64,000 nucleotides of DNA, taken from assembly GCA_005116835.1 (NCBI GenBank), contig SWDM01000004.1, forward strand, positions 28,749 through 92,748. Direction: 5' to 3'. Shown here piece by piece: positions 30,107-41,385 of the stretch (position 1 is its first letter; the number at the start of each line of letters is the position of its first letter). This DNA comes from Nitrospira sp. GTDB taxonomy: Bacteria > Nitrospirota > Nitrospiria > Nitrospirales > Nitrospiraceae. The notes below the pieces were generated by a model that was not told where the DNA came from, did no database searches, and saw nothing but the letters and a program-made list of their open reading frames with translations. Position numbers and translations under genes: made by a program.

Positions 30107-30427
30107 TTACGCCTGATTCGGCGCGACGAACACGAGGACTTTGAGCCGTTGGTCTGTGTGGTTCTTCACGCCGTGCTCTTCTCCAGCCGGCGCCATGGTC
30201 CCCTGACCAGGACCGAGCACCTGTTTCTCTGAACCGACCTGGAATGTGCCCTGCCCCTCAAGCACGAGATAGACCTTGTCCTGCTCGCCATGGATATGCC
30301 CCTTCTGTTCCTGCCCTGGCTCGAAGCAGTAGATGTCGCAGAAGAATCGTGATGTCTGAAACAAATTATTCTTCTTCATCTTCTCGCTGCTGAACTGCTG
30401 CTGGTCCGAGATATTCACCACGTTCAT
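30107..30427 (-). CDS. Cupin domain protein
   Basis: Predicted 106-aa single cupin domain. Motif 1 is GQEQKGHIHGEQDKVYLVLE (metal-type His residues and Glu) and motif 2 PAGEEHGVKNHTD. A small metal-binding beta-barrel protein; function not determined. AGGAG precedes the ATG. It follows the HdrB-like gene by 12 bp, so it is probably the last gene of that operon. Confidence 0.8.
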   Translation of the reverse strand: MNVVNISDQQQFSSEKMKKNNLFQTSRFFCDIYCFEPGQEQKGHIHGEQDKVYLVLEGQGTFQVGSEKQVLGPGQGTMAPAGEEHGVKNHTDQRLKVLVFVAPNQA

Positions 30428-30439
30428 TCGCCGACTCCT

Positions 30440-31339
30440 TCAGGACGGTTGCGGATTGGTTCGACGCCGCTCAAGTTTCGCCAAGATAGAATCAACCGAG
30501 ATCACGTGATGCGAGAGCCCCAAGTCCTTGGCCGGAAGCCCCATTGCAAGACCGAGCAACTGCGGCACATGCAAGATCGGCAAGTGAAACTCTCGGTTCA
30601 TCGCATGGCCTGCCCGCTCCTGATAGATATCCAGACTCATGTGGCACAGAGGACAGGGCGTGACCATAAAGTCGGCTCCATGTTCCTTGGCCTCGTCCAT
30701 GTGCATCCCTGACATGGCCACGGCAATGGCTTCCTTTTCGAGGATGATAGGAAATCCACAACATTTGGTTCTTCCGGAATAGGCCACCGGTTCGCCACCG
30801 ACGGCCTTGATGACCTGTTCGAGGGATTGAGGGTTCTCAGGATCGTCGAACCCCAGCTCCCACGATGGCCGCAAGATATAGCAACCATAAAACGGGGCGA
30901 TATGAAAATCTCCCATCGGCACAGAGGTCATCGCGCTCAAGCGCGTCAGGCCGATGTCGCGCACCACAATCCACAACAGATGTTTGACTTGGACTCGACC
31001 ATGATAGGCCAAGCCTTCTGGCTCTAGAAGGCTATTGATGCGATCCAGAATCCCTGCCTCTGTCTTCAGTCGTCGATTGGCTGCGCTCATGACCCCTTGG
31101 CAGGTGCCGCAGATCGTCATCACATCCAGCCCAAGTGCCTCCGCCTGCGCAAAGGTTCTGGCGTTGAGCGCCAATGCCATATCGGGATTCGCCTCAGTCA
31201 CAACCCCGGCGCCGCAGCAGGCCGCGGCAGTGAGTTCGACCACCTCAATCCCCAATCGTCCGATGATCGCTCTCGTCGATTGATAGAGTTCCGGCGTAGC
31301 CCCTTGGGCTGCGCAACCTGGATAGAGAGCATATTTCAT
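30440..31339 (-). CDS. HdrB-like CCG-domain protein
   Basis: Predicted 299-aa protein with two cysteine-rich CCG domains: ALYPGCAAQ...AACCGAGVV, ICGTCQG, then GCYILRP...TKCCGFPI, TPCPLCHMSLD. This is the heterodisulfide reductase subunit B pattern, also used by the SdhE-type subunit of some succinate dehydrogenases and by (S)-2-hydroxy-acid oxidoreductases, binding a non-cubane iron-sulfur cluster. In this organism an electron-transfer role with a quinone or thiol partner is inferred. The ATG at 31337-31339 is chosen over an upstream codon that overlaps the previous gene. Confidence 0.85.
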   Translation of the reverse strand: MKYALYPGCAAQGATPELYQSTRAIIGRLGIEVVELTAAACCGAGVVTEANPDMALALNARTFAQAEALGLDVMTICGTCQGVMSAANRRLKTEAGILDRINSLLEPEGLAYHGRVQVKHLLWIVVRDIGLTRLSAMTSVPMGDFHIAPFYGCYILRPSWELGFDDPENPQSLEQVIKAVGGEPVAYSGRTKCCGFPIILEKEAIAVAMSGMHMDEAKEHGADFMVTPCPLCHMSLDIYQERAGHAMNREFHLPILHVPQLLGLAMGLPAKDLGLSHHVISVDSILAKLERRRTNPQPS

Positions 31340-31349
31340 TGATGTACCG

Positions 31350-31793
31350 TCACGGGAGATGAGACAGCGTCCGGTTGACGGAGTCACGAAGATCGTCCAT
31401 CGCAGCCGCCGTTTTCGACTTGACCTGCTCCCAGGAAGAAGCCGTCGCGGAATGAATATCCTCCGCTTTTTTCTTTGCCAGGTCTCTTTTCTTTTCTAAT
31501 TCCACGATCGCTTTCTGGATATCCGTTCTGGCTTCAGTCGATGCATGGTTGACTTGCCCACGGAGTTTCGCGATATGCACCTGTATCTCGTCCAGTTCTA
31601 CTTGCACCTTCCGCTGGAATACGTCTTTCTGCTGAATGGTATAATCCTTGGTGGCAATCGCCGCTTCCTGCGCTTCCTTGACAACCGTGCCGCCGGATAC
31701 CTGTTTATCTGCCGCTCCAGCCGCAACAGCACCGAACAACATCAACAGCCCTGTTCCCACGATCGCCAACAACCCTCCGACACGATTCTTCAT
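31350..31793 (-). CDS. Secreted coiled-coil protein
   Basis: Predicted 147-aa protein. A signal peptide (KNRVGGLLAIVGTGLLML...AAGA) is followed by a long charged helix with heptad pattern (about 50-130: VELDEIQVHIAKLRGQ, IVELEKKRDLAKKKAED). Similar to small periplasmic coiled-coil proteins of unknown role. The ATG at 31793 has GGAG 9 bp upstream; the open frame further upstream reads through a 9-bp-period repeat and is not coding. Ten base pairs separate it from the HdrB-like gene. Confidence 0.65.
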   Translation of the reverse strand: MKNRVGGLLAIVGTGLLMLFGAVAAGAADKQVSGGTVVKEAQEAAIATKDYTIQQKDVFQRKVQVELDEIQVHIAKLRGQVNHASTEARTDIQKAIVELEKKRDLAKKKAEDIHSATASSWEQVKSKTAAAMDDLRDSVNRTLSHLP

Positions 31794-31817
31794 CGACATT
31801 GTCTCCATCCAGACTCG

Positions 31818-31907
31818 TTTAACTGGTTTGTTTGGTTTGTCTTGTTTGTTTGGTTGAACCGGACAGACAAGATAGACCAGACAGACCTGGTTTGTCCTCA
31901 ACCAGCT
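31818..31907. repeat. 9-bp-period palindromic repeat, copy f
   Basis: Left arm TGGTTTGTT TGGTTTGTC TT.., centre GGTTGAACC, right arm of GACAGACAA/GATAGACCA/GACAGACC units. It lies just upstream of the coiled-coil gene on the minus strand. Confidence 0.75.
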
Positions 31908-32015: not shown

Positions 32016-34151
32016 CTAGCTGGCTTTACGCAGAGAAACCCCCGGGAGTGACTGGGCAAATATATCAGCAGGCATTGGCTGACCGAACAGATAGCCTTGA
32101 GCCTGATCACAACCCTGTGCGAGCAGCAAGACTCTTTGCGCCTCCTGTTCGACCCCCTCGGCAAGCACCAACAGATCAAGGCTATGGGCCATGGCGATGA
32201 TCGCCCTCACGATCGGAGCGGGATGGGTCTCCGTCAGGATTTCATGGATAAAGGATTGATCGATCTTCACCGTGTCGATCGGCAACCTCTGCAGATAACT
32301 CAGAGAGGAATAACCTGTCCCGAAGTCGTCGATTGAGAGCTGTACCCCCATCGACTTCAATGCCGTGAGCATGATAATCGAGGCTTCCACATTGCGCATT
32401 GCGATCGATTCCGTCAATTCCAACTCCAGGCAAGCCGGCGTCAACCCGGTCTGACGAAGAGATTTCTCCACGACCGAGAGCAAGGTATTACCGTGAAACA
32501 ACGAGTTGGAGATGTTGATGGAAATACGCACCGGCATCTTGCCTCGCTGCTCCCACGCCTGGATGTGACGGCAAGCTGTTTTCAGCACCCACTCATCGAT
32601 CGTTCTGCTCAAGCCCGTATCCACTGCAGCCGGCAGAAACTCTCCGGGATGGATGAGTCCTCTTTTGGGATGCTGCCACCGCACCAACGCCTCCGCTCCG
32701 ATAATCGCTCCGGTCTTCAGATCGATTTGCGGCTGGTAATAGACTACGAACTCTTCTCGGTCGACGGCATGGCGCAATTCCCCTTCCAAAACCAACCGCT
32801 CGTTGGCAGTCGCATTTAGGCTGTTCGAATAGAACTGGAAATTATTCCTGCCTTCTTCCTTGGCATGATACATCGCGCTGTCCGCATTCTTCAGCAATGC
32901 GTCGACTGACTCTCCGTCAACCGGGAATATGGCAATACCGACACTGACCGTGACAAAAATCTCCCGCCCTTCAATCGAGAATGACTTCTGCAGCGACTCC
33001 ACAATTCTGCGGGCAACTTTTCCGGCATCCTGCACATCATGCAAATTGGTGAGCAGCACGGTAAACTCATCGCCGCCCAATCGTGCGAGCGAATGGTTCT
33101 CCCCTTTGTCGACAGAGCGGCAGATTGAGTCGCTATGCCGCACGGACTCGGCCAGACGGTCCGCCACACTCTTTAGGAGCAAGTCACCGACATTATGTCC
33201 CAACGTATCGTTGATGACCTTAAACCGATCCAAATCGAGAAAGAGCAATGCCAATGTGGTGCTGTAGCGGCGGCCATGCAAGAGGGCTTGCTCGACGCGA
33301 TCTTTAAACAGGACACGGTTCGGCAGTCCCGTCAGGCTGTCGTAGTAGGCCAGGCGATGTATCTCACGTTCAGACTGTTTCCGATCGCTGATGTCTTGCG
33401 TGGTCCCAATAACCGAGAGGGCTTTCATTTGATCGTCCAATATCAACTCAGCTTGAAGATTGACTGAAATGTTCCCTCCGTTCGGCAGGACGAGACGATG
33501 GTCGAGAACGCAGGGTACTCGATTGACCAACAGACCCTTCAGGGCCTCCGCCACCTGAGTTCTGTCTTCTGCATGGACACGCTGGATATACCCGTCGAAG
33601 GTGCTGGAAAAATCCTGCTGTCGAATCCCCATCAGGCGACAGAGTTCGGCCGACGCAGCGAACTGATTCGTTTCGGGACGCCATTCCCAGTTGCCGATCT
33701 TGGCGATCCGCTGCGCGATTCCAAGCCTCGCCTCGCTTTTCAGCAAGGCATCCAACATGCGGGTACTGCGCAACAAATACCGCACCCGATGATCTAAAAT
33801 CATCGGATTGAAGGGTTTGGTAATGAAATCCGTCGCACCCTGTTCATAGGCCTTGGCGATCGATTCGTTGTCGTCGAGTCCGGTCATGACCAAGATCGGC
33901 ACTCGGCTGCCGCCCACCAAACCGCGCAATTTCGAAGCGGCGGTGAACCCATCCATACCAGGCATCACAATATCCATGAGCACGATATCGGGGCGATACT
34001 CGGCAAATCGCTCTAGGGCTTGCTCGCCGTTTTCAGCTTCGCAAACCTGATAGCCTGATTGCTCAAGCACTTCACGGACGAGTACTCGTATGAAGGGTTC
34101 GTCGTCTACCACCAATGCGAGCCTGCACTTTCGTTCTTCTAATAATTCCAT
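32016..34151 (-). CDS. Response regulator with PAS, GGDEF and EAL domains
   Basis: Predicted 711-aa protein. Receiver about 10-130 (VVDDEPF; phospho-acceptor in VLMDIVMPG; TGLDD; FITKPF), PAS/PAC about 145-265, GGDEF about 280-450 with the intact signature RLGGDEF, and EAL about 460-705 with EALVRWQHP and IDDFGTGYSSL. GGDEF domains make c-di-GMP and EAL domains degrade it; both motifs look intact, so the net activity cannot be predicted. Its start lies 5 bp after the stop of the hybrid kinase gene, so it is the likely output of that phosphorelay and last gene of the six-gene cluster. Confidence 0.92.
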   Translation of the reverse strand: MELLEERKCRLALVVDDEPFIRVLVREVLEQSGYQVCEAENGEQALERFAEYRPDIVLMDIVMPGMDGFTAASKLRGLVGGSRVPILVMTGLDDNESIAKAYEQGATDFITKPFNPMILDHRVRYLLRSTRMLDALLKSEARLGIAQRIAKIGNWEWRPETNQFAASAELCRLMGIRQQDFSSTFDGYIQRVHAEDRTQVAEALKGLLVNRVPCVLDHRLVLPNGGNISVNLQAELILDDQMKALSVIGTTQDISDRKQSEREIHRLAYYDSLTGLPNRVLFKDRVEQALLHGRRYSTTLALLFLDLDRFKVINDTLGHNVGDLLLKSVADRLAESVRHSDSICRSVDKGENHSLARLGGDEFTVLLTNLHDVQDAGKVARRIVESLQKSFSIEGREIFVTVSVGIAIFPVDGESVDALLKNADSAMYHAKEEGRNNFQFYSNSLNATANERLVLEGELRHAVDREEFVVYYQPQIDLKTGAIIGAEALVRWQHPKRGLIHPGEFLPAAVDTGLSRTIDEWVLKTACRHIQAWEQRGKMPVRISINISNSLFHGNTLLSVVEKSLRQTGLTPACLELELTESIAMRNVEASIIMLTALKSMGVQLSIDDFGTGYSSLSYLQRLPIDTVKIDQSFIHEILTETHPAPIVRAIIAMAHSLDLLVLAEGVEQEAQRVLLLAQGCDQAQGYLFGQPMPADIFAQSLPGVSLRKAS

Positions 34152-34156
34152 CTTCC

Positions 34157-36949
34157 CTACGCTGTTTTATTATCCAATTCGTTCAGCACGGCCTGCTTCA
34201 CCGCTTCATACACTGAGTCCAATTCATCCATCCTCGTTTGGACTCCCGCCACATTACCCTGGCGGCCCATGAATTCAATATCTTTCAGAATACTGGATAG
34301 GCCCATGGCGCCGATCATGGCGCTCGACGATTTCAAAGCATGGGCCGCATGAAAAAGCGCCGCTGCATCCTGATGAACCATGGCCTGCTGAATGGCGCCT
34401 ATATATGTGGCCGAGCTGTCCAAAAAACTCTTCAGAATTTGCGCAACCGGATCCGGACGGCCCGGACGTCTGAGAGCCCGTATCTGGGCAAGCACTTGGT
34501 CGACGAGCGGCACATCCGGCTGGGCGATAACCGGTATCGGTGTCGCTCTCTGCTCCGTCTGATTGGATGATGGCTGCGCTGGTTCTGCCAGCCCCGCTTT
34601 GGATTGATCTGAAGATAGCCTTGTCCTGTCGTAGGGCCTTCTGATCCACCGCTGGACCATCTCTCCAAGTTCTGCCTGCGTAAAGGGTTTGCTCATGTAG
34701 TCATCCATACCGGCAGCCAAACAGCGTTCGCGATGGTTATCGATTGCATGCGCCGTCAACGCGACAATGGTCATATGCCGGCCAGTACGCTGCTCACCTT
34801 CGCGAATCGCTTTGGTCGCGGAGAAGCCGTCCATTGCCGGCATCTGACAGTCCATCAGTACCAGGTCGAATTGGCTGGATTCCGCCTGCATCACAGCCTC
34901 TTGACCATGCTCGACCGCCATAACTTGGCAACCCAATTGTTCCAACATGCAGACCGCAACCTCTCGATTGACCGGATTGTCCTCTGCCAGCAGAATCCGC
35001 GCCCCTGTTATCCTTGGATCAGGGAGCTGAGGAGGGGCGGTCGGCAAAAGAACTCCCCTCCGCTCCGGAAATCTCTTTCCGGCTTCGCGCGTACTCCCGG
35101 ACACTTTCGCCAAACGGGCGGTACACCAAAACGTCGCCCCTTGCCCAGCTTCACTCTTGACACCGACAGTCCCCTCCATCAGCAGAATCAACTGCTTCAC
35201 GATAGACAATCCTAGGCCGGTCCCACCGAATTTTCTGGCTGTCGACCCATCGGCCTGAGAGAACGGATGAAAGATTTTGGCATGCGCATCAGGCGCAACA
35301 CCGATCCCCGTATCTTGAACCTCGAATCGTACTGTGGCATGTGAAGCCGATCCTTCCTCTATTGTGACAGTGAGGGTGACGCTACCATGCTCGGTAAATT
35401 TCAAGGCATTGCTCACCAGATTCATAAGCACCTGTTGTAACCGAACAGGATCTCCCTGGAGAACAGAGGGGACAGACTCATCCAGCACACAAGTCAGCTC
35501 GATCCCCTTGCCCTCTGCCTGGTCGACAAAGAGATCCACCACTTCCCTGACCGTCTTGTTCAGATCGAATCGGATTCGCTCCAGTTCAACCTTTCCTGCC
35601 TCTACCTTCGAAAGATCCAACACATCGTTGAGGAGCTTCAACAGCGCAGCCCCGGATCGATATACGGTGTCGACAAAGTGTCCCTGTTTGGTCGATAGGG
35701 GCGTCTGCCGCAACAACTCGGTCATCCCGAGAATCCCGTTCATCGGCGTGCGAATTTCATGGCTGATGTGGGCCAAGAATTCGCTTTTGACCTTGCTCGC
35801 CGCTTCGGCAAGATTCTTTGCCTCCTCAAGAGCCTTGAGCGTTTCAGTCCGCATGACAGCTTCCAACTCAAGCTGAGCTCGATACTTGCCTTGCGCCTCT
35901 TCGGCCTGCTTCCGTTCCGTAATGTCACGGATAAAACTGCTCAATACATATCCCCCATCCACCGAAATCGCAGTCATGGACCATTCCACAGGGAACTCGG
36001 CCCCATCCTTTCTCATGGCGGTCAGTTCAACCCGCCGGTTCAAGAGCGAGGTCTCACGCGACTCACGGAATTGCGCAAGTTCTTGACGGTGCGCTTCGCG
36101 ATATCGGGCCGGAATGATGATGGACTCGAGCGGTTCCCCGACGACTTCCTGCTCGGACCAGCCAAAGATCACCTCAGCCTGAATGTTCCATGTGACGATC
36201 GCCCCACCCGCGTCTATCGTGACGACCGCATCGAGCGCCGTATCGATCGTCTTCCGCAGCCGACTCTCGCTGCTTTCAAGATACTGGCTGAGACGCCGGA
36301 TGGTCTTGCCCACGACGAAAATCGTTGCGATGGTGAGCAAGGCCATCGTCAAGATCTGTCGCACAAGCGACTGCCATGCCTCAGCCTGCAGCCTCCCGAG
36401 CGACATTTCGACTCGAATCCATCCGGCGAATTTGGGCGCTCGGTCATACCCATTCTCTGCGGCATTCTCGGTTCCGGTCCGATACAACGGATCTTGATAG
36501 ACCGGCTCGAAGATCACGATGGTATCATCGCTTAAGCCGAACTCCGGTCCGGAGAAGGCAACCCCATTTCTCTTCAAGTCTGCGCTCTTGGTCACTTGAT
36601 CGTCGAGGATCGTGCCGATCAGTGCTGTCACGTCCGATGCCACCACCATGCTATCGGGATCGAGCATCATGATGCGCTTGATGTCATGCTGATTTTTGAT
36701 TTGAATAAAGGCGCTCTGCAACATGAACAGGTTGTCGAACAAAGCCGTGGCGCCGATAGCCGCGTACCCGCTGGCCAATACCTGCCCCTGTTCCTGGGCC
36801 TGTATGCGGACGGCTTGTTGTTCGTTATGAATGAAAAAACCGGTGTACCCTGCTACCACGAGGAGGAGAATGCCGCTGATCGCCAGCGTCATCCGCTGGA
36901 CAGGAGATTGGACAGGTCTGTGCAGCTGCAGATGGTCGTCGTTAGGCAT
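34157..36949 (-). CDS. Hybrid sensor histidine kinase with REC and Hpt domains
   Basis: Predicted 930-aa membrane kinase. TM1 about 20-38, a periplasmic sensor of about 150 aa, TM2 about 195-213, PAS about 230-350, HisKA with HISHEIRTPMNG, HATPase with LMNLVSNALKFTEHG and GTGLGLSIV, receiver with LVLMDCQMPAMDGFSA, and a C-terminal Hpt domain with HAAHALKSSSAMIGA. The layout is of the BarA/TorS type, giving a multistep phosphorelay ending on a separate regulator, most simply the neighbouring GGDEF-EAL protein. Twelve base pairs separate it from the upstream cupredoxin gene, so it probably senses the state of the electron-transfer proteins (inference). Confidence 0.92.
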   Translation of the reverse strand: MPNDDHLQLHRPVQSPVQRMTLAISGILLLVVAGYTGFFIHNEQQAVRIQAQEQGQVLASGYAAIGATALFDNLFMLQSAFIQIKNQHDIKRIMMLDPDSMVVASDVTALIGTILDDQVTKSADLKRNGVAFSGPEFGLSDDTIVIFEPVYQDPLYRTGTENAAENGYDRAPKFAGWIRVEMSLGRLQAEAWQSLVRQILTMALLTIATIFVVGKTIRRLSQYLESSESRLRKTIDTALDAVVTIDAGGAIVTWNIQAEVIFGWSEQEVVGEPLESIIIPARYREAHRQELAQFRESRETSLLNRRVELTAMRKDGAEFPVEWSMTAISVDGGYVLSSFIRDITERKQAEEAQGKYRAQLELEAVMRTETLKALEEAKNLAEAASKVKSEFLAHISHEIRTPMNGILGMTELLRQTPLSTKQGHFVDTVYRSGAALLKLLNDVLDLSKVEAGKVELERIRFDLNKTVREVVDLFVDQAEGKGIELTCVLDESVPSVLQGDPVRLQQVLMNLVSNALKFTEHGSVTLTVTIEEGSASHATVRFEVQDTGIGVAPDAHAKIFHPFSQADGSTARKFGGTGLGLSIVKQLILLMEGTVGVKSEAGQGATFWCTARLAKVSGSTREAGKRFPERRGVLLPTAPPQLPDPRITGARILLAEDNPVNREVAVCMLEQLGCQVMAVEHGQEAVMQAESSQFDLVLMDCQMPAMDGFSATKAIREGEQRTGRHMTIVALTAHAIDNHRERCLAAGMDDYMSKPFTQAELGEMVQRWIRRPYDRTRLSSDQSKAGLAEPAQPSSNQTEQRATPIPVIAQPDVPLVDQVLAQIRALRRPGRPDPVAQILKSFLDSSATYIGAIQQAMVHQDAAALFHAAHALKSSSAMIGAMGLSSILKDIEFMGRQGNVAGVQTRMDELDSVYEAVKQAVLNELDNKTA

Positions 36950-36960
36950 CCACGGCGTCC

Positions 36961-37920
36961 TTATTTGTATTCCAGGTCTAGGACAACCGTGCCCTGAACC
37001 GGAACCTGCACGTCCCTCTGCATCGCACCCAAGGTCTCATGCCACACCGAGATCCTGTGCAATCCCGGAGAAACGCCGCTGATCGTGAATCGACCATCCT
37101 CTGTCGTCTGGTCGAAGTAGGGATCGTCAAACACCAGTCGATATGCCTGCATAAACTTGTGCATATGACATGTGATCATCTGCAGGCCCGCTTTCTTCAG
37201 CTGTTTCTTGACCGGACGCCCTCCCGCCACCATCGCCACATTGAGCACGGTGCTATTGGCGACAGTGATATGGGTATTGTGCATTACCGGGTCGTCGTTG
37301 ACCGTTCCCATTTCATTCCCCACCTGCGCTGCCGAGACATGGGGATGGAACCGGCATTGTCTGTTTCGAACGACAATAGAAGCCGCGGCAGGTCTTTCTG
37401 CTGGGACATCGCCCTCGCCCAACTCTACATGCACGACGGCATTCCGAAGTCCACGTGTGGTTGTGTCGACCGAAAGCGGGGTCATTGATATGGTCGTTCC
37501 GCACACCTCCTGGTCCCGATCGACTTCGCTCAGAGTGGGAGAAGGAACCGGCCCTCGATATAGAACACGTCCGACTATCACTGGGCCTACCGGTTCGGAT
37601 AATGCCTGCCCCGTTGGCGGAGCTTCGCTGCCAGGCTGCGGCGCCGCTGGGGCAGGAGACACTGGTTCAAGCTCCGCTACAGGGGGAACCACCTCCTGTG
37701 CCCGACGAAATTTTGCAGGCAAAACCGGTGCAAGCCCTTGCAATCCCTGAGAGACGGCCGCCCTGCGGCCAACTTCATTTGGATCGGCGTCAGACTGCGA
37801 TGCGGCAAGGAGCATCGGCCAACCGGCCAGTCCGATCATCAGAACGGACACACCGACAGAGAGTAGGCGGACGAACGCCTGTGAACACATTGCAGAGCGA
37901 TTACTCTTCATCTTCAGCAT
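36961..37920 (-). CDS. Secreted cupredoxin-like protein (long paralog)
   Basis: Predicted 319-aa protein. Signal peptide about 15-42, then a Pro/Ala-rich linker (about 75-110), then a domain with likely type 1 copper ligands: H214 (DPVMHNTH), C251, H254 and M257 (CHMHKFM). The C-x2-H-x2-M loop is like that of amicyanin. The domain ends with FTISGVSPGLHRISVWHE, a carboxypeptidase-regulatory-like beta element. About half of the protein is closely related to the 258-aa neighbour, from which it differs by the linker. A periplasmic electron carrier is the likely role. Its start overlaps the stop of that neighbour by one base (TAATG). Confidence 0.75.
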   Translation of the reverse strand: MLKMKSNRSAMCSQAFVRLLSVGVSVLMIGLAGWPMLLAASQSDADPNEVGRRAAVSQGLQGLAPVLPAKFRRAQEVVPPVAELEPVSPAPAAPQPGSEAPPTGQALSEPVGPVIVGRVLYRGPVPSPTLSEVDRDQEVCGTTISMTPLSVDTTTRGLRNAVVHVELGEGDVPAERPAAASIVVRNRQCRFHPHVSAAQVGNEMGTVNDDPVMHNTHITVANSTVLNVAMVAGGRPVKKQLKKAGLQMITCHMHKFMQAYRLVFDDPYFDQTTEDGRFTISGVSPGLHRISVWHETLGAMQRDVQVPVQGTVVLDLEYK

Positions 37921-38696
37921 TATTTATATTCCAGATCTACGACGACTGTGCCCCGCGCCGGAACCTGCACCTCCTTTTCCACGACACCTAAGATCTCATG
38001 CCACACGCTGATCCTATGGGTGCCAGGAGAGACACCAGAGATGGAGAACTGGCCGGTTTCCGTCGTCTGGTCAAAATACGGATCATCAAACACCACCCGA
38101 TACGCTTGCATAAACTTGTGGACGTTACATTTCACCAGGTGCAGGCCCAATTTCTTCAGCCGTTTCTTAATCGGGTTCCCTCCCGCCACCATCGCCACAT
38201 TGAGCGCCGTGCTATTCTCGACAATAATATTGGTATTGTGCATCACCGGATCGTCGTTAAAAATCTGCACTTCATCCCCCATCTGCGCTGCAGCGACATG
38301 GGGTTGGAACCGGCAATCTTTGTTTCGCACGACGGCTGGACTTTGAAATACTATTCTGGCTGACACCTCACCGGCAGCCAAATCCACATGGACCACGGCA
38401 TTCCGTAGTCCATGGGTGCCTGCATCGACTGAGAGCGAGGCCGTCGATATGGTGACGCCGCACACGTCCGTATCCCGATTGACCGCTAACTGGGTGGGAG
38501 CGGGCACCGGCCCTCGATACAGGATGCGTCCGACAATTACCGGCCCTGTCGATTCACTACTCGATTGCGGCGCAGCAAGAAGCGGCGACCAATCGGCCAA
38601 TCCCGCCACCACAAAGAACATAACGACCACCAGGATGCGGCCGAGAGCCTGCGCAGAAATCCTGTGATAGCCAGTCATAACTCTCCTACCCATCAC
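37920..38696 (-). CDS. Secreted cupredoxin-like protein (short paralog)
   Basis: Predicted 258-aa protein. N-terminal hydrophobic segment (ILVVVMFFVVAGLA) then the conserved domain from GPVIVGRILYRGPVP. Candidate copper ligands are H153 (DPVMHNTN), C190, H193 and M196 (CNVHKFM). Shares the FSISGVSPGTHRISVWHE end with the neighbour, so the two arose by tandem duplication. Starts inside the stop of the diheme cytochrome gene (ATGA-type 4-bp overlap), so the genes are translated together. Confidence 0.75.
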   Translation of the reverse strand: MMGRRVMTGYHRISAQALGRILVVVMFFVVAGLADWSPLLAAPQSSSESTGPVIVGRILYRGPVPAPTQLAVNRDTDVCGVTISTASLSVDAGTHGLRNAVVHVDLAAGEVSARIVFQSPAVVRNKDCRFQPHVAAAQMGDEVQIFNDDPVMHNTNIIVENSTALNVAMVAGGNPIKKRLKKLGLHLVKCNVHKFMQAYRVVFDDPYFDQTTETGQFSISGVSPGTHRISVWHEILGVVEKEVQVPARGTVVVDLEYK

Positions 38697-39463
38697 TGTC
38701 TTTCCTGTGATAGTGAAAGAATGTAGTACACAAGATCCCAGACGTCCTTGTCATTACCCCCAATGGTATCGGCATAGGACGGCATGGGTGTGCCGTCCAA
38801 CCCAGTCATGATGCCGCGGTAGATTGCCTGAGCAGAAGACCCGCCCTTGAAAGACGCCCGTTCGGTTAAGTCGCCGGGAGAGATCGTGTGCCCATATGTA
38901 TCCTTCAAGTTGCCGTCAAGCGCTTCCTTTCCATCTCCATAGCCGTTATCCCCGTGACAGTTCTGACATCCGTACTTGATATACACCGTGCGCCCGTTAT
39001 CGATTCCGGCAGCTGAAGGAGGGCCTGGAGGATTGGGCAACAGCAAGGCTATGGACACTGGGCCCTTGAACCCTTGGTTGAACGATTTGATATAGGCAAT
39101 GACCTGCCACCGCTCTTCTTCACTCAACCCGCTGTACGGTGGCATATGGCCGGAAATGCCTTGCGTCACCGTACGGAACAGGTCTTGATCGATCGGCAGC
39201 TCACCGGATGGCGTACTGCGGAACTTGTAACTTCCTCCGCGAAAATCTCGCGGACGTGGTCCTTCATAGCGGCTAAGAAACCATCCGGCCGGTCCATCGC
39301 CCCTTCCATCCACGCCATGACAGAGGAGACATGCATGCTCATAGATCTGTTTTCCCTTTTCCCTGGTCGCCTGGTTATCTTCAGGCTTTACGGCATGGAC
39401 AAATGACGCGCCGCTGAGCATCAGAAGGCTAGCGCCGATAGCGACAAGTGCATGGATTCTCAT
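38693..39463 (-). CDS. Periplasmic diheme cytochrome c
   Basis: Predicted 256-aa protein. Signal peptide 1-24 (RIHALVAIGASLLMLSGASF). Two class I cytochrome c domains: heme 1 CLLCH at C45-C48-H49 with likely distal Met in GHMPPYSGL (M107), heme 2 CQNCH at C166-C169-H170 with distal Met in GTPMPSYAD. Similar in plan to c4-type or Cyc1-type carriers that pass electrons across the periplasm. GGGGGAG lies 3 bp before the ATG. It follows the cytochrome-porin gene by 12 bp and overlaps the cupredoxin gene. Confidence 0.88.
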   Translation of the reverse strand: MRIHALVAIGASLLMLSGASFVHAVKPEDNQATREKGKQIYEHACLLCHGVDGRGDGPAGWFLSRYEGPRPRDFRGGSYKFRSTPSGELPIDQDLFRTVTQGISGHMPPYSGLSEEERWQVIAYIKSFNQGFKGPVSIALLLPNPPGPPSAAGIDNGRTVYIKYGCQNCHGDNGYGDGKEALDGNLKDTYGHTISPGDLTERASFKGGSSAQAIYRGIMTGLDGTPMPSYADTIGGNDKDVWDLVYYILSLSQERQ

Positions 39464-39475
39464 AGACTCCCCCAC

Positions 39476-40852
39476 TCAGAAAACCACATCGATCCCGGAG
39501 AAGAAGGCATGGCGAAGATTTCTCGCCGCGGTCTCTCCACCTTCCGATTGCCTAAGATTGAAATCGCCTCTGGCAAAAATCGCCAGATTGGCGCGGAGAA
39601 AATGTTTCGCTTGCAGGCCGATAAACGAGGCAGACGTTCGCTGATCCAGCATCCCGCCTGCATCCAAGTTGTCGTACCGAAAGGAGACTAGCGTCTGGTT
39701 CGTCACATAGGTATCGGCGCCAATCGTCAAACCGGTTGCGGTAGAATCGAACAGACCAGCCACGCCCATCGGCGTCTTGTTGATCTTATCTACGGAATAG
39801 GCAGCGTAGACATCGACCATCATGTAAGTCGCCCGCGCCGACAACCCATAGCGATTCCAATTCACGTCCTCTTCGGTCTGCACTTTGGCATTGCTGTTGC
39901 CTTGGTAGATAAACCCCGACAGACTGGCGGAGAAAAAATTCGACTTCGCATAATCGAAACGAACCATGCCATAGACATCCTTCCCCTTATTCGAGTCGCT
40001 CAAATGCTCGTGAGACCCATTCAGCACTCCGACTTGATACAGGAACCAATCTCCGAAGGGGCGCCCATGAATATCGACGCCGGTTTCGGCCCCTGAGTTA
40101 AAGAGTGACGCGGCGAAGGGGGACAGAGCGTTGCCAGACCTGTCATAGAGGCCGTAGAATTTTGTCGCGAAGGCGCTGGGCGCTAGGCCCACTCGGTTAA
40201 ATGCACAGGGAGCAAACGCCGTACAATTACCCCTCTGGCTTTCCCCAATCTCCCCAAGCTGTTGGCGCACCGTGGCATAGGACGAGAAGGTGTTGGGGTC
40301 GAACTTTCCGACTCGCAGATGCGCAAGGTCACGATACCCGAGGTTGTTAAAGGTCACGAATCCTCGCTCCACCTCTGCGCCACCCTCTGCGACGTCATGG
40401 CCCAACTCGACAAAAAATCCAACGTTTTTCGCCACGGTCCCGCCGGCGAACACCACGAAATTATTGGGAAACGAAAACTCGGTCTTATTTTCGACCGTCC
40501 CGGCATCGGCGCCTGGAGGGTTCTGCTGCTTAAATCTCCAACTGTTTGTCACATTGCCGATCAAGCGGAACCCGAGATAATGATTCACGTCGTCCAGGTT
40601 TAGGTCGCTCAATTTTTTCTTGCCGGTACTGCCACCGTCTTCTGTGCCAGGCAATTGATATCCGTTTTCGAGAAATCGTTGGCCGAACGCGTTCAAGATC
40701 GGGGGCGCCGTGTGGCAGTCCATACAATTGGTATTGTATTTACGGGCAAAGGCAGGAATGGCCTGTGCTTCTTCGGGTGCCAGAAGAGGCGTCAGTAGTG
40801 CTCCACCGAGTATGCTCAGTGCGACGACGAGGAAAGACGTACGAGTAAACAT
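39476..40852 (-). CDS. Cyc2-like outer-membrane monoheme cytochrome-porin fusion
   Basis: Predicted 458-aa protein. Signal peptide 1-31, then AIPAFARKYNTNCMDCH with heme motif C43-x-x-C46-H47 and ILNAFGQRFLENGY. The rest (about 80-458) is rich in alternating polar/aromatic beta-strands and ends in phenylalanine (GIDVVF), as expected of an outer-membrane barrel. N-terminal PAFAR..C..CH...LNAFG..F...GY followed by a porin is the plan of Cyc2, the iron-oxidising outer-membrane cytochrome. First gene of the cluster. Homologues without demonstrated function also exist, so Fe(II) oxidation is a hypothesis. Confidence 0.75.
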   Translation of the reverse strand: MFTRTSFLVVALSILGGALLTPLLAPEEAQAIPAFARKYNTNCMDCHTAPPILNAFGQRFLENGYQLPGTEDGGSTGKKKLSDLNLDDVNHYLGFRLIGNVTNSWRFKQQNPPGADAGTVENKTEFSFPNNFVVFAGGTVAKNVGFFVELGHDVAEGGAEVERGFVTFNNLGYRDLAHLRVGKFDPNTFSSYATVRQQLGEIGESQRGNCTAFAPCAFNRVGLAPSAFATKFYGLYDRSGNALSPFAASLFNSGAETGVDIHGRPFGDWFLYQVGVLNGSHEHLSDSNKGKDVYGMVRFDYAKSNFFSASLSGFIYQGNSNAKVQTEEDVNWNRYGLSARATYMMVDVYAAYSVDKINKTPMGVAGLFDSTATGLTIGADTYVTNQTLVSFRYDNLDAGGMLDQRTSASFIGLQAKHFLRANLAIFARGDFNLRQSEGGETAARNLRHAFFSGIDVVF

Positions 40853-41019: not shown

Positions 41020-41385
41020 TTAAGAAGCTCCGCCAAACTCAGCAGACTGTTTGTCTCTAAGGTAGGGCTCCATTTCGAGCTGCTTCACGAATTTCTGAAG
41101 GTGAGCCCATTCCGTCGGAACAATCACTTCAAACTCAAGGCCGAATTGCCGCTCTCGGCGCCACCGGACAATCGCTGCCTGAATCAGAATTGGGGGTTCA
41201 TGCTCAATGGCCTGAATCTGAACCTCCAGAGTGGCTCCAGGCTGAACCTCGATGGGACTTTCGATGCGACAACCCCTGATGGAGAGATCGACAACCCTGC
41301 CCTCTCCGCCAACCCTGCCGGTGGAAGAAAAAGAACTACGAAATTTGACTGGAAACCGGATGTTCTCTCGTTGTTCCATCGTCAT
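41020..41385 (-). CDS. PilZ domain protein
   Basis: Predicted 121-aa protein. The c-di-GMP-binding motifs RENIR (RxxxR) near residue 6 and DLSIRG (D/NxSxxG) near 48 are intact, so it is likely a c-di-GMP receptor. Beta-barrel core then a C-terminal helix. It lies in the same direction as, and about 170 bp upstream of, the cytochrome-porin cluster that ends in a GGDEF-EAL protein. AGGTATGACG-type spacing before the ATG is unremarkable. Confidence 0.88.
   Translation of the reverse strand: MTMEQRENIRFPVKFRSSFSSTGRVGGEGRVVDLSIRGCRIESPIEVQPGATLEVQIQAIEHEPPILIQAAIVRWRRERQFGLEFEVIVPTEWAHLQKFVKQLEMEPYLRDKQSAEFGGAS

Follow-up and report, generated by a model that had tools for sequence, protein, structure and literature searches.

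The question raised by a six-gene cluster in a 64-kb stretch of a Nitrospira sp. contig (the stretch as a whole is referred to here as the window) is whether a cytochrome-porin, the electron carriers encoded beside it, and a neighboring sensor kinase belong together and, if so, what they might do for the cell. The window is part of a 3.94-Mb genome (G000, at C19:28749-92748), and the cluster genes are numbered from 1, the porin, to 6, a GGDEF-EAL regulator. All six open reading frames (ORFs) run on the minus strand and span positions 32016-40852; proceeding from gene 1 to gene 6, the junctions consist of 0 bp, a 4-bp overlap, a 1-bp overlap, 11 bp, and 5 bp. A sequence-only reading of the window had described a tightly joined cluster of this kind, and the ORFs bear it out with the same coordinates and with gaps or overlaps of 0 to 11 bp. 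Promoter and terminator scans of the cluster did no better than those of shuffled sequences and thus lend no support to a single transcript. The porin, a diheme cytochrome c, a cupredoxin, and a specific kinase with a Cache-type sensor form a conserved module that is new as a unit, and we give about an even chance to its being a module for Cyc2-type electron uptake that includes its own sensor kinase.

Gene 1 (39476..40852, minus strand) encodes a protein of 458 residues with one CXXCH motif and a C-terminal Phe. Cyc2 proteins are defined by a CXXCH motif that is immediately preceded by AXPXFAR[Q/K][T/Y] and followed by PXL, a length of at least 365 residues, and a 16-stranded porin resembling OprO and OprP (PMC8406198). 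The window porin reads AIPAFARKY-NTN-CMDCH-TAP-PIL, which is an exact fit to the published consensus and spacing, and its length and single heme site likewise agree with the Cyc2 description. Its N-terminus is hydrophobic and ends in AQA, a putative signal peptide as judged by eye. Neither Pfam nor NCBIfam provides a family for the protein, and thus its identity was set by motif and modeling; searches of the PDB with the porin and with a porin profile gave no match. The AlphaFold model, with a mean predicted local distance difference test score (pLDDT) of 56, about 60-85 in the barrel part and below 50 in the heme domain, displays 16 strands of at least seven residues. Among the PDB candidates supplied by Foldseek, the best structural alignments calculated with VIA-align were those to OprO (4rjx; Z 19.2, 4.1 Å over 308 residues) and OprP (2o4v; Z 18.7), with further 16-stranded porins lying within 1-2 Z units. 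These top matches support the Cyc2 assignment since the same templates were named for Cyc2 (PMC8406198). By motif, length, and predicted barrel, then, the protein is a Cyc2-type fused cytochrome-porin, which is what the earlier reading had proposed from the heme site and a barrel-like chain, and the model supplies the predicted barrel.

The Cyc2/Cyt572 proteins of Mariprofundus, Acidithiobacillus, and Leptospirillum share with the window porin the heme motif, the PXL motif, the length, and the predicted OprO/OprP-like barrel. The Nitrospira porin differs from them in representing a Nitrospirota subfamily that is tied to a diheme cytochrome c, a cupredoxin, and a Cache kinase. It also differs from MtrAB-type complexes, in which the barrel and a multiheme cytochrome are separate, whereas here a single heme is fused to the barrel. 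MtrAB conduits run outward, and this behavior of another family of cytochrome-porin conduits is what recommends the idea that the Nitrospira parts export electrons, passing them from the periplasmic pool to external acceptors under oxygen limitation. Export is nonetheless very improbable in our judgment, because a lone heme at the periplasmic end would fall short of the cell surface, and because the characterized Cyc2 proteins oxidize Fe(II) (PMC8406198).

Gene 2 (38693..39475, minus strand) encodes a periplasmic diheme cytochrome c of 260 residues with two CXXCH motifs and, according to Pfam, two Cytochrom_C/CBB3 domains, in keeping with the diheme cytochrome of the sequence-only reading. The family profile matches the "conserved hypothetical cytochrome protein" 6h5l_B over nearly its full length (E value 3.7e-60). 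We take 6h5l_B to be the diheme partner in the Kuenenia HAO-like complex kustc0457/0458. The two gene products kustc0457 and kustc0458 have been named as an HAO-like protein and diheme partner pair (PMC12485887). The homology extends over nearly the entire diheme protein, but there is no HAO-like gene in the Nitrospira cluster.

Genes 3 (37920..38696, 258 residues) and 4 (36961..37920, 319 residues), both on the minus strand, belong to one family, the second protein carrying an extra Pro-rich segment at its N-terminus. In an alignment of 20 cupredoxin sequences, His 153, Cys 190, His 193, and Met 196 are invariant, as are Cys 79 and Cys 128, and the family profile matches amicyanin (E value 3.7e-4) in an alignment that brings the four copper ligands into register. 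Judged from these alignments, both proteins are amicyanin-like type-1 cupredoxins with the full ligand set. At residues 210-255 of the 258-residue protein there is a region resembling CarboxypepD_reg, scoring below the Pfam gathering threshold. The two cupredoxins are 63% identical; the closest relative of the cluster, L057, has a single one at the same place, and because a lone cupredoxin is the rule among the relatives, the second copy seems to have arisen by local duplication. The two copper proteins with His/Cys/His/Met sets that the earlier reading described are therefore substantiated as to their ligands, but as a pair they are not typical.

That reading had also drawn a parallel to the rus operon of Acidithiobacillus ferrooxidans, and the order and content of genes 1 to 4 are indeed analogous to cyc2-cyc1-copper protein, with a cytochrome-porin, a diheme cytochrome, and a type-1 copper protein encoded together. 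The parallel is incomplete. A scan of the six proteins and of flanking genes identified neither rusticyanin nor aa3/cytochrome oxidase genes, and the closest solved relative of the diheme cytochrome is 6h5l_B, not Cyc1. Moreover, the Nitrospira cupredoxin is amicyanin-like with a carboxypeptidase-regulatory-like tail, and a phosphorelay has been added.

The phosphorelay begins with gene 5 (34157..36949, minus strand), a membrane hybrid histidine kinase of 930 residues. Pfam assigns the domains PAS-HisKA-HATPase-REC-Hpt, and together with the sensor model the predicted architecture is TM-Cache-TM-PAS-HisKA-HATPase-REC-Hpt, where TM denotes a transmembrane helix. Residues 1-222 (36284..36949, minus strand) form the conserved Cache sensor with its two TM helices, a segment that recurs in related loci. 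Although sCache_3_2 is matched in 8 of 17 members of the sensor family, the window member has no Pfam family in this part. The sensor-domain profile matches WalK with an E value of 2e-4 and DcuS weakly, and the model (pLDDT 79) displays a Cache/PDC fold between the two helices, with WalK as the best match and Z values of 12-15 to WalK, CitA, DcuS, and DctB. The likeness to WalK/DcuS/CitA-type Cache (PDC) kinases lies in the sensor fold; the difference is that the Nitrospira sensor is associated with redox carriers. The same sensor domain is present in 16 further proteins of related loci, even where the porins are only about half identical.

Whether these parts belong together was addressed by comparison of gene neighborhoods. 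Relatives were sought within Nitrospirota, plus plasmids and one scan of named genomes. The porin subfamily is present in 36 of 235 Nitrospirales genomes, at a total of 42 loci, 38 of which match the strict Cyc2 motif. One of the loci is a second copy of the module in the host genome itself (L056, at C17:138494). The diheme gene adjoins the porin gene in 40 of the 42 loci, and near the porin a cupredoxin is found in 37 and the Cache kinase in 31, most of the absences being due to contig ends. When the count is restricted to the 29 loci whose contigs extend 5 kb or more downstream, the diheme cytochrome and the cupredoxin are each present in 28 and the Cache kinase in 27. Exceptions are L063, where a dCache-HAMP-HisKA kinase and an NtrC-type regulator directly follow the diheme gene, and L190, where the porin is broken. 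The search of plasmids for annotated Cyc2 yielded one weak match, from Methylocystis, which was not useful.

With 31 HisKA kinases in the host genome, we estimate the chance of a neighboring kinase at ~1-2 per cent per gene, and the recurrence of the gene set, at 42 loci, shows that the cluster is not a chance association. The loci are related, however, and the linkage counts are not independent. Better evidence of a functional tie is accordingly provided by reordering and by replacement of the kinase: the gene arrangement has changed at least five times on the porin tree while membership was kept. The linkage of the module genes across Nitrospirales, in 27-28 of the 29 loci with enough contig, is the outcome of the neighborhood comparison that the sequence-only reading had proposed.

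Viewed from the sensor side, there are 25 sensor copies in 61 genomes, 14 of them near a cytochrome-porin and 18 beside an intact cupredoxin; two more adjoin a truncated cupredoxin. At three of the 14 (L085, L122, and L131), the sensor kinase and cupredoxin accompany divergent cytochrome-porins of ~30% identity. At these three loci the porin is followed by a lipoprotein-like gene of 283-287 residues, the cupredoxin, and the Cache kinase, with no diheme gene directly after the porin. A porin-free definition of the module, namely diheme-cupredoxin-kinase only, was considered and set aside because it fits L126, L129, and L130 and fails for most loci. An apparent fusion of the diheme and cupredoxin genes in L058/L039 was read as a frameshift, because in L069, a close relative, the two are separate ORFs. 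In L121 and L123 a truncated cupredoxin lies beside an intact sensor kinase with no porin, apparently in decaying modules. A cytochrome of ~765 residues with 30 CXXCH motifs is encoded a few kilobases from the module in L060 (8890-11181) and from the remnant in L121 (13034-15358), which consists of the sensor kinase with the truncated cupredoxin; both loci are from Nitrospira genomes.

The output side of the phosphorelay is far less constant. Gene 6 (32016..34151, minus strand) encodes a response regulator of 711 residues with the Pfam architecture REC-PAS-GGDEF-EAL; as read from the sequence, the EAL catalytic residues look intact and the GGDEF motif is present. The adjacency of the two genes suggests that this regulator is the partner of the kinase. 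A GGDEF-EAL regulator is found in only 2 of the 42 loci, however, those being the window and its close relative L057, and elsewhere the response regulators beside the module kinases are LuxR, OmpR, or receiver-only types. The kinase portions behind the same sensor include HisKA hybrids with or without Hpt, plain HisKA, and HisKA_3. Because the sensor is constant while kinase types and regulators differ, the sensory input of the module is fixed and its output free. Cyclic di-GMP (c-di-GMP) as a general output of the module is ruled out by the count of two. It follows that the phosphorelay of the sequence-only reading is retained, the hybrid kinase being real and its linkage conserved across relatives, and that the c-di-GMP output, emphasized there, gives way to the Cache-sensor kinase as the conserved element. 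In L058, L123, and L128, kinases with the same Cache domain adjoin genes that by eye resemble fliW, csrA, flgK, and flgL, hinting at a link to motility.

A protein of 121 residues with a PilZ domain (E value 6e-13), possibly a c-di-GMP receptor, is encoded 167 bp upstream of the porin gene (41020..41385, minus strand). Its association with the module is uncertain; a PilZ gene also precedes the porin in L043/L057, L055, and L042/L164. Downstream of the cluster lie a gene at 31350-31901, an HdrB-like CCG protein (30440-31387), and a cupin (30107-30427), in an order that is the same in L057.

An alternative is that the module is chiefly a redox antenna. Extracellular donors would reduce the porin heme and then the diheme cytochrome and the cupredoxin, and the Cache kinase would respond to whether the cupredoxin is reduced or oxidized by setting c-di-GMP or transcription, with effects on attachment and motility; energy gain would be secondary. 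The near-obligate kinase linkage, the replacement rather than loss of the kinase in L063, the cupredoxins beside 18 of the 25 sensor copies (with truncated ones beside two more), and the GGDEF-EAL and PilZ genes of the window cluster are all in its favor. We consider it unlikely all the same, since ordinary co-regulation would also explain the co-location, the sensor has no redox center, and Cache domains usually bind small molecules.

According to the electron-uptake reading, a soluble one-electron donor such as Fe(II), another reduced metal, or a small donor would enter the barrel and reduce the heme at its periplasmic mouth. Electrons would then pass from the porin heme to the diheme cytochrome and the type-1 cupredoxin or cupredoxins and on into the periplasmic electron pool. 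The Cache kinase may report the state or the substrate of this redox chain through its periplasmic domain, and the response regulator would adjust behavior accordingly, by way of the c-di-GMP level here and by transcription or other outputs in relatives. Dozens of related genomes preserve the combination, which suggests that the uptake of electrons and the sensing of them or their source are constructed as a single unit.

Several observations weigh against this reading. The heme domain of the porin is not confidently modeled (pLDDT below 50), the sensor alignment contains no conserved Cys or His to bind metal or heme, and the cluster has no oxidase or bc1 genes. Five of the 25 sensor copies are without the partners named above, and in L126, L129, and L130 the module is reduced to the diheme cytochrome, cupredoxin, and Cache kinase, with no cytochrome-porin. 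The remaining points come from other orders of the class. In nine genomes of these orders the porin-diheme pair is kept in all nine, and neither a cupredoxin nor the Cache kinase was found beside it. A copper-type P1B heavy-metal ATPase lies within ~6 kb of the pair in five of the nine loci (L196, L197, L199, L201, and L203), accompanied by MerR-type regulators at three of the five and by a CopZ-like protein at one, so that the genomic partner changes between orders. One further locus has a CusA/CzcA-family RND pump near the pair. Since the pair is kept outside the order while its partners differ, it looks like an older core. The presence of copper and heavy-metal exporters next to the pair in sister orders suggests that some of the family, if not all, has a role in metal homeostasis, and it weakens a purely Fe(II)-energy reading.

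These neighbors speak for metal, and specifically copper, handling, whereby the porin-diheme pair would act at the cell envelope to oxidize a reduced metal, for example Cu(I), or to assist in its expulsion and, in Nitrospirales, the cupredoxins and kinase would serve as a copper-sensing and buffering arm. The cupredoxins are copper proteins, and a multicopper oxidase is encoded beside the module remnant in L121. We judge this explanation improbable, though not negligible, for the Nitrospirales module, given that no P-type ATPase is present in the examined flanks of any of the 42 loci, that type-1 sites serve electron transfer and not storage, and that the sensor has no copper-binding motif. 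The large multicopper oxidase of L121 (5555-8095; Cu-oxidase_2) has similar counterparts in L062 (5367-7805) and L064 (13631-15121), the three lying beside a sensor kinase or the porin-diheme pair.

The electron-uptake module would probably operate in a nitrifier. The nearest named relatives, as judged by the porin protein, are Nitrospira metagenome-assembled genomes, and the host genome contains one strong match to AMO (AmoA family; E value 2e-91). On the basis of this AmoA-family gene, the host is probably a complete-ammonia-oxidizing (comammox) Nitrospira.

Homologues of Cyc2 in Nitrospirales and 'Ca. Manganitrophaceae' are already on record (PMC9040806, PMC10654088, PMC11442690). They come from the same phylum and are of the same protein type; the passages of these reports that were consulted describe no operon with a cupredoxin and kinase. 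A literature search for Cyc2 or Nitrospira together with a cupredoxin and histidine kinase returned nothing relevant, which is weak evidence of novelty as journal coverage was incomplete. The earlier suggestion of a previously undescribed conduit thus holds for the cluster, of which no description was found, and not for the porin alone. The module is built from known kinds of parts; it is real, conserved, and, within the literature searched, new as a unit.

Cyc2 is taken as a genetic marker of iron oxidation, yet it occurs in many genomes not known to oxidize iron, including those of nitrifiers. Because the present subfamily is linked as a whole to a specific sensor kinase in Nitrospirales and, in sister orders, has metal exporters as neighbors, the presence of a Cyc2-like gene should not be taken for iron lithotrophy without its context. 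If the antenna explanation, doubtful as we hold it, were true, a Cyc2-type conduit would be a sense organ of Nitrospirales that sets c-di-GMP, transcription, or motility, beyond its use as an energy route. Transcriptomes from sand filters and from comammox cultures can be screened for the four-gene signature, and the module offers a concrete, testable candidate for the coupling of envelope redox chemistry to regulation in nitrifiers.

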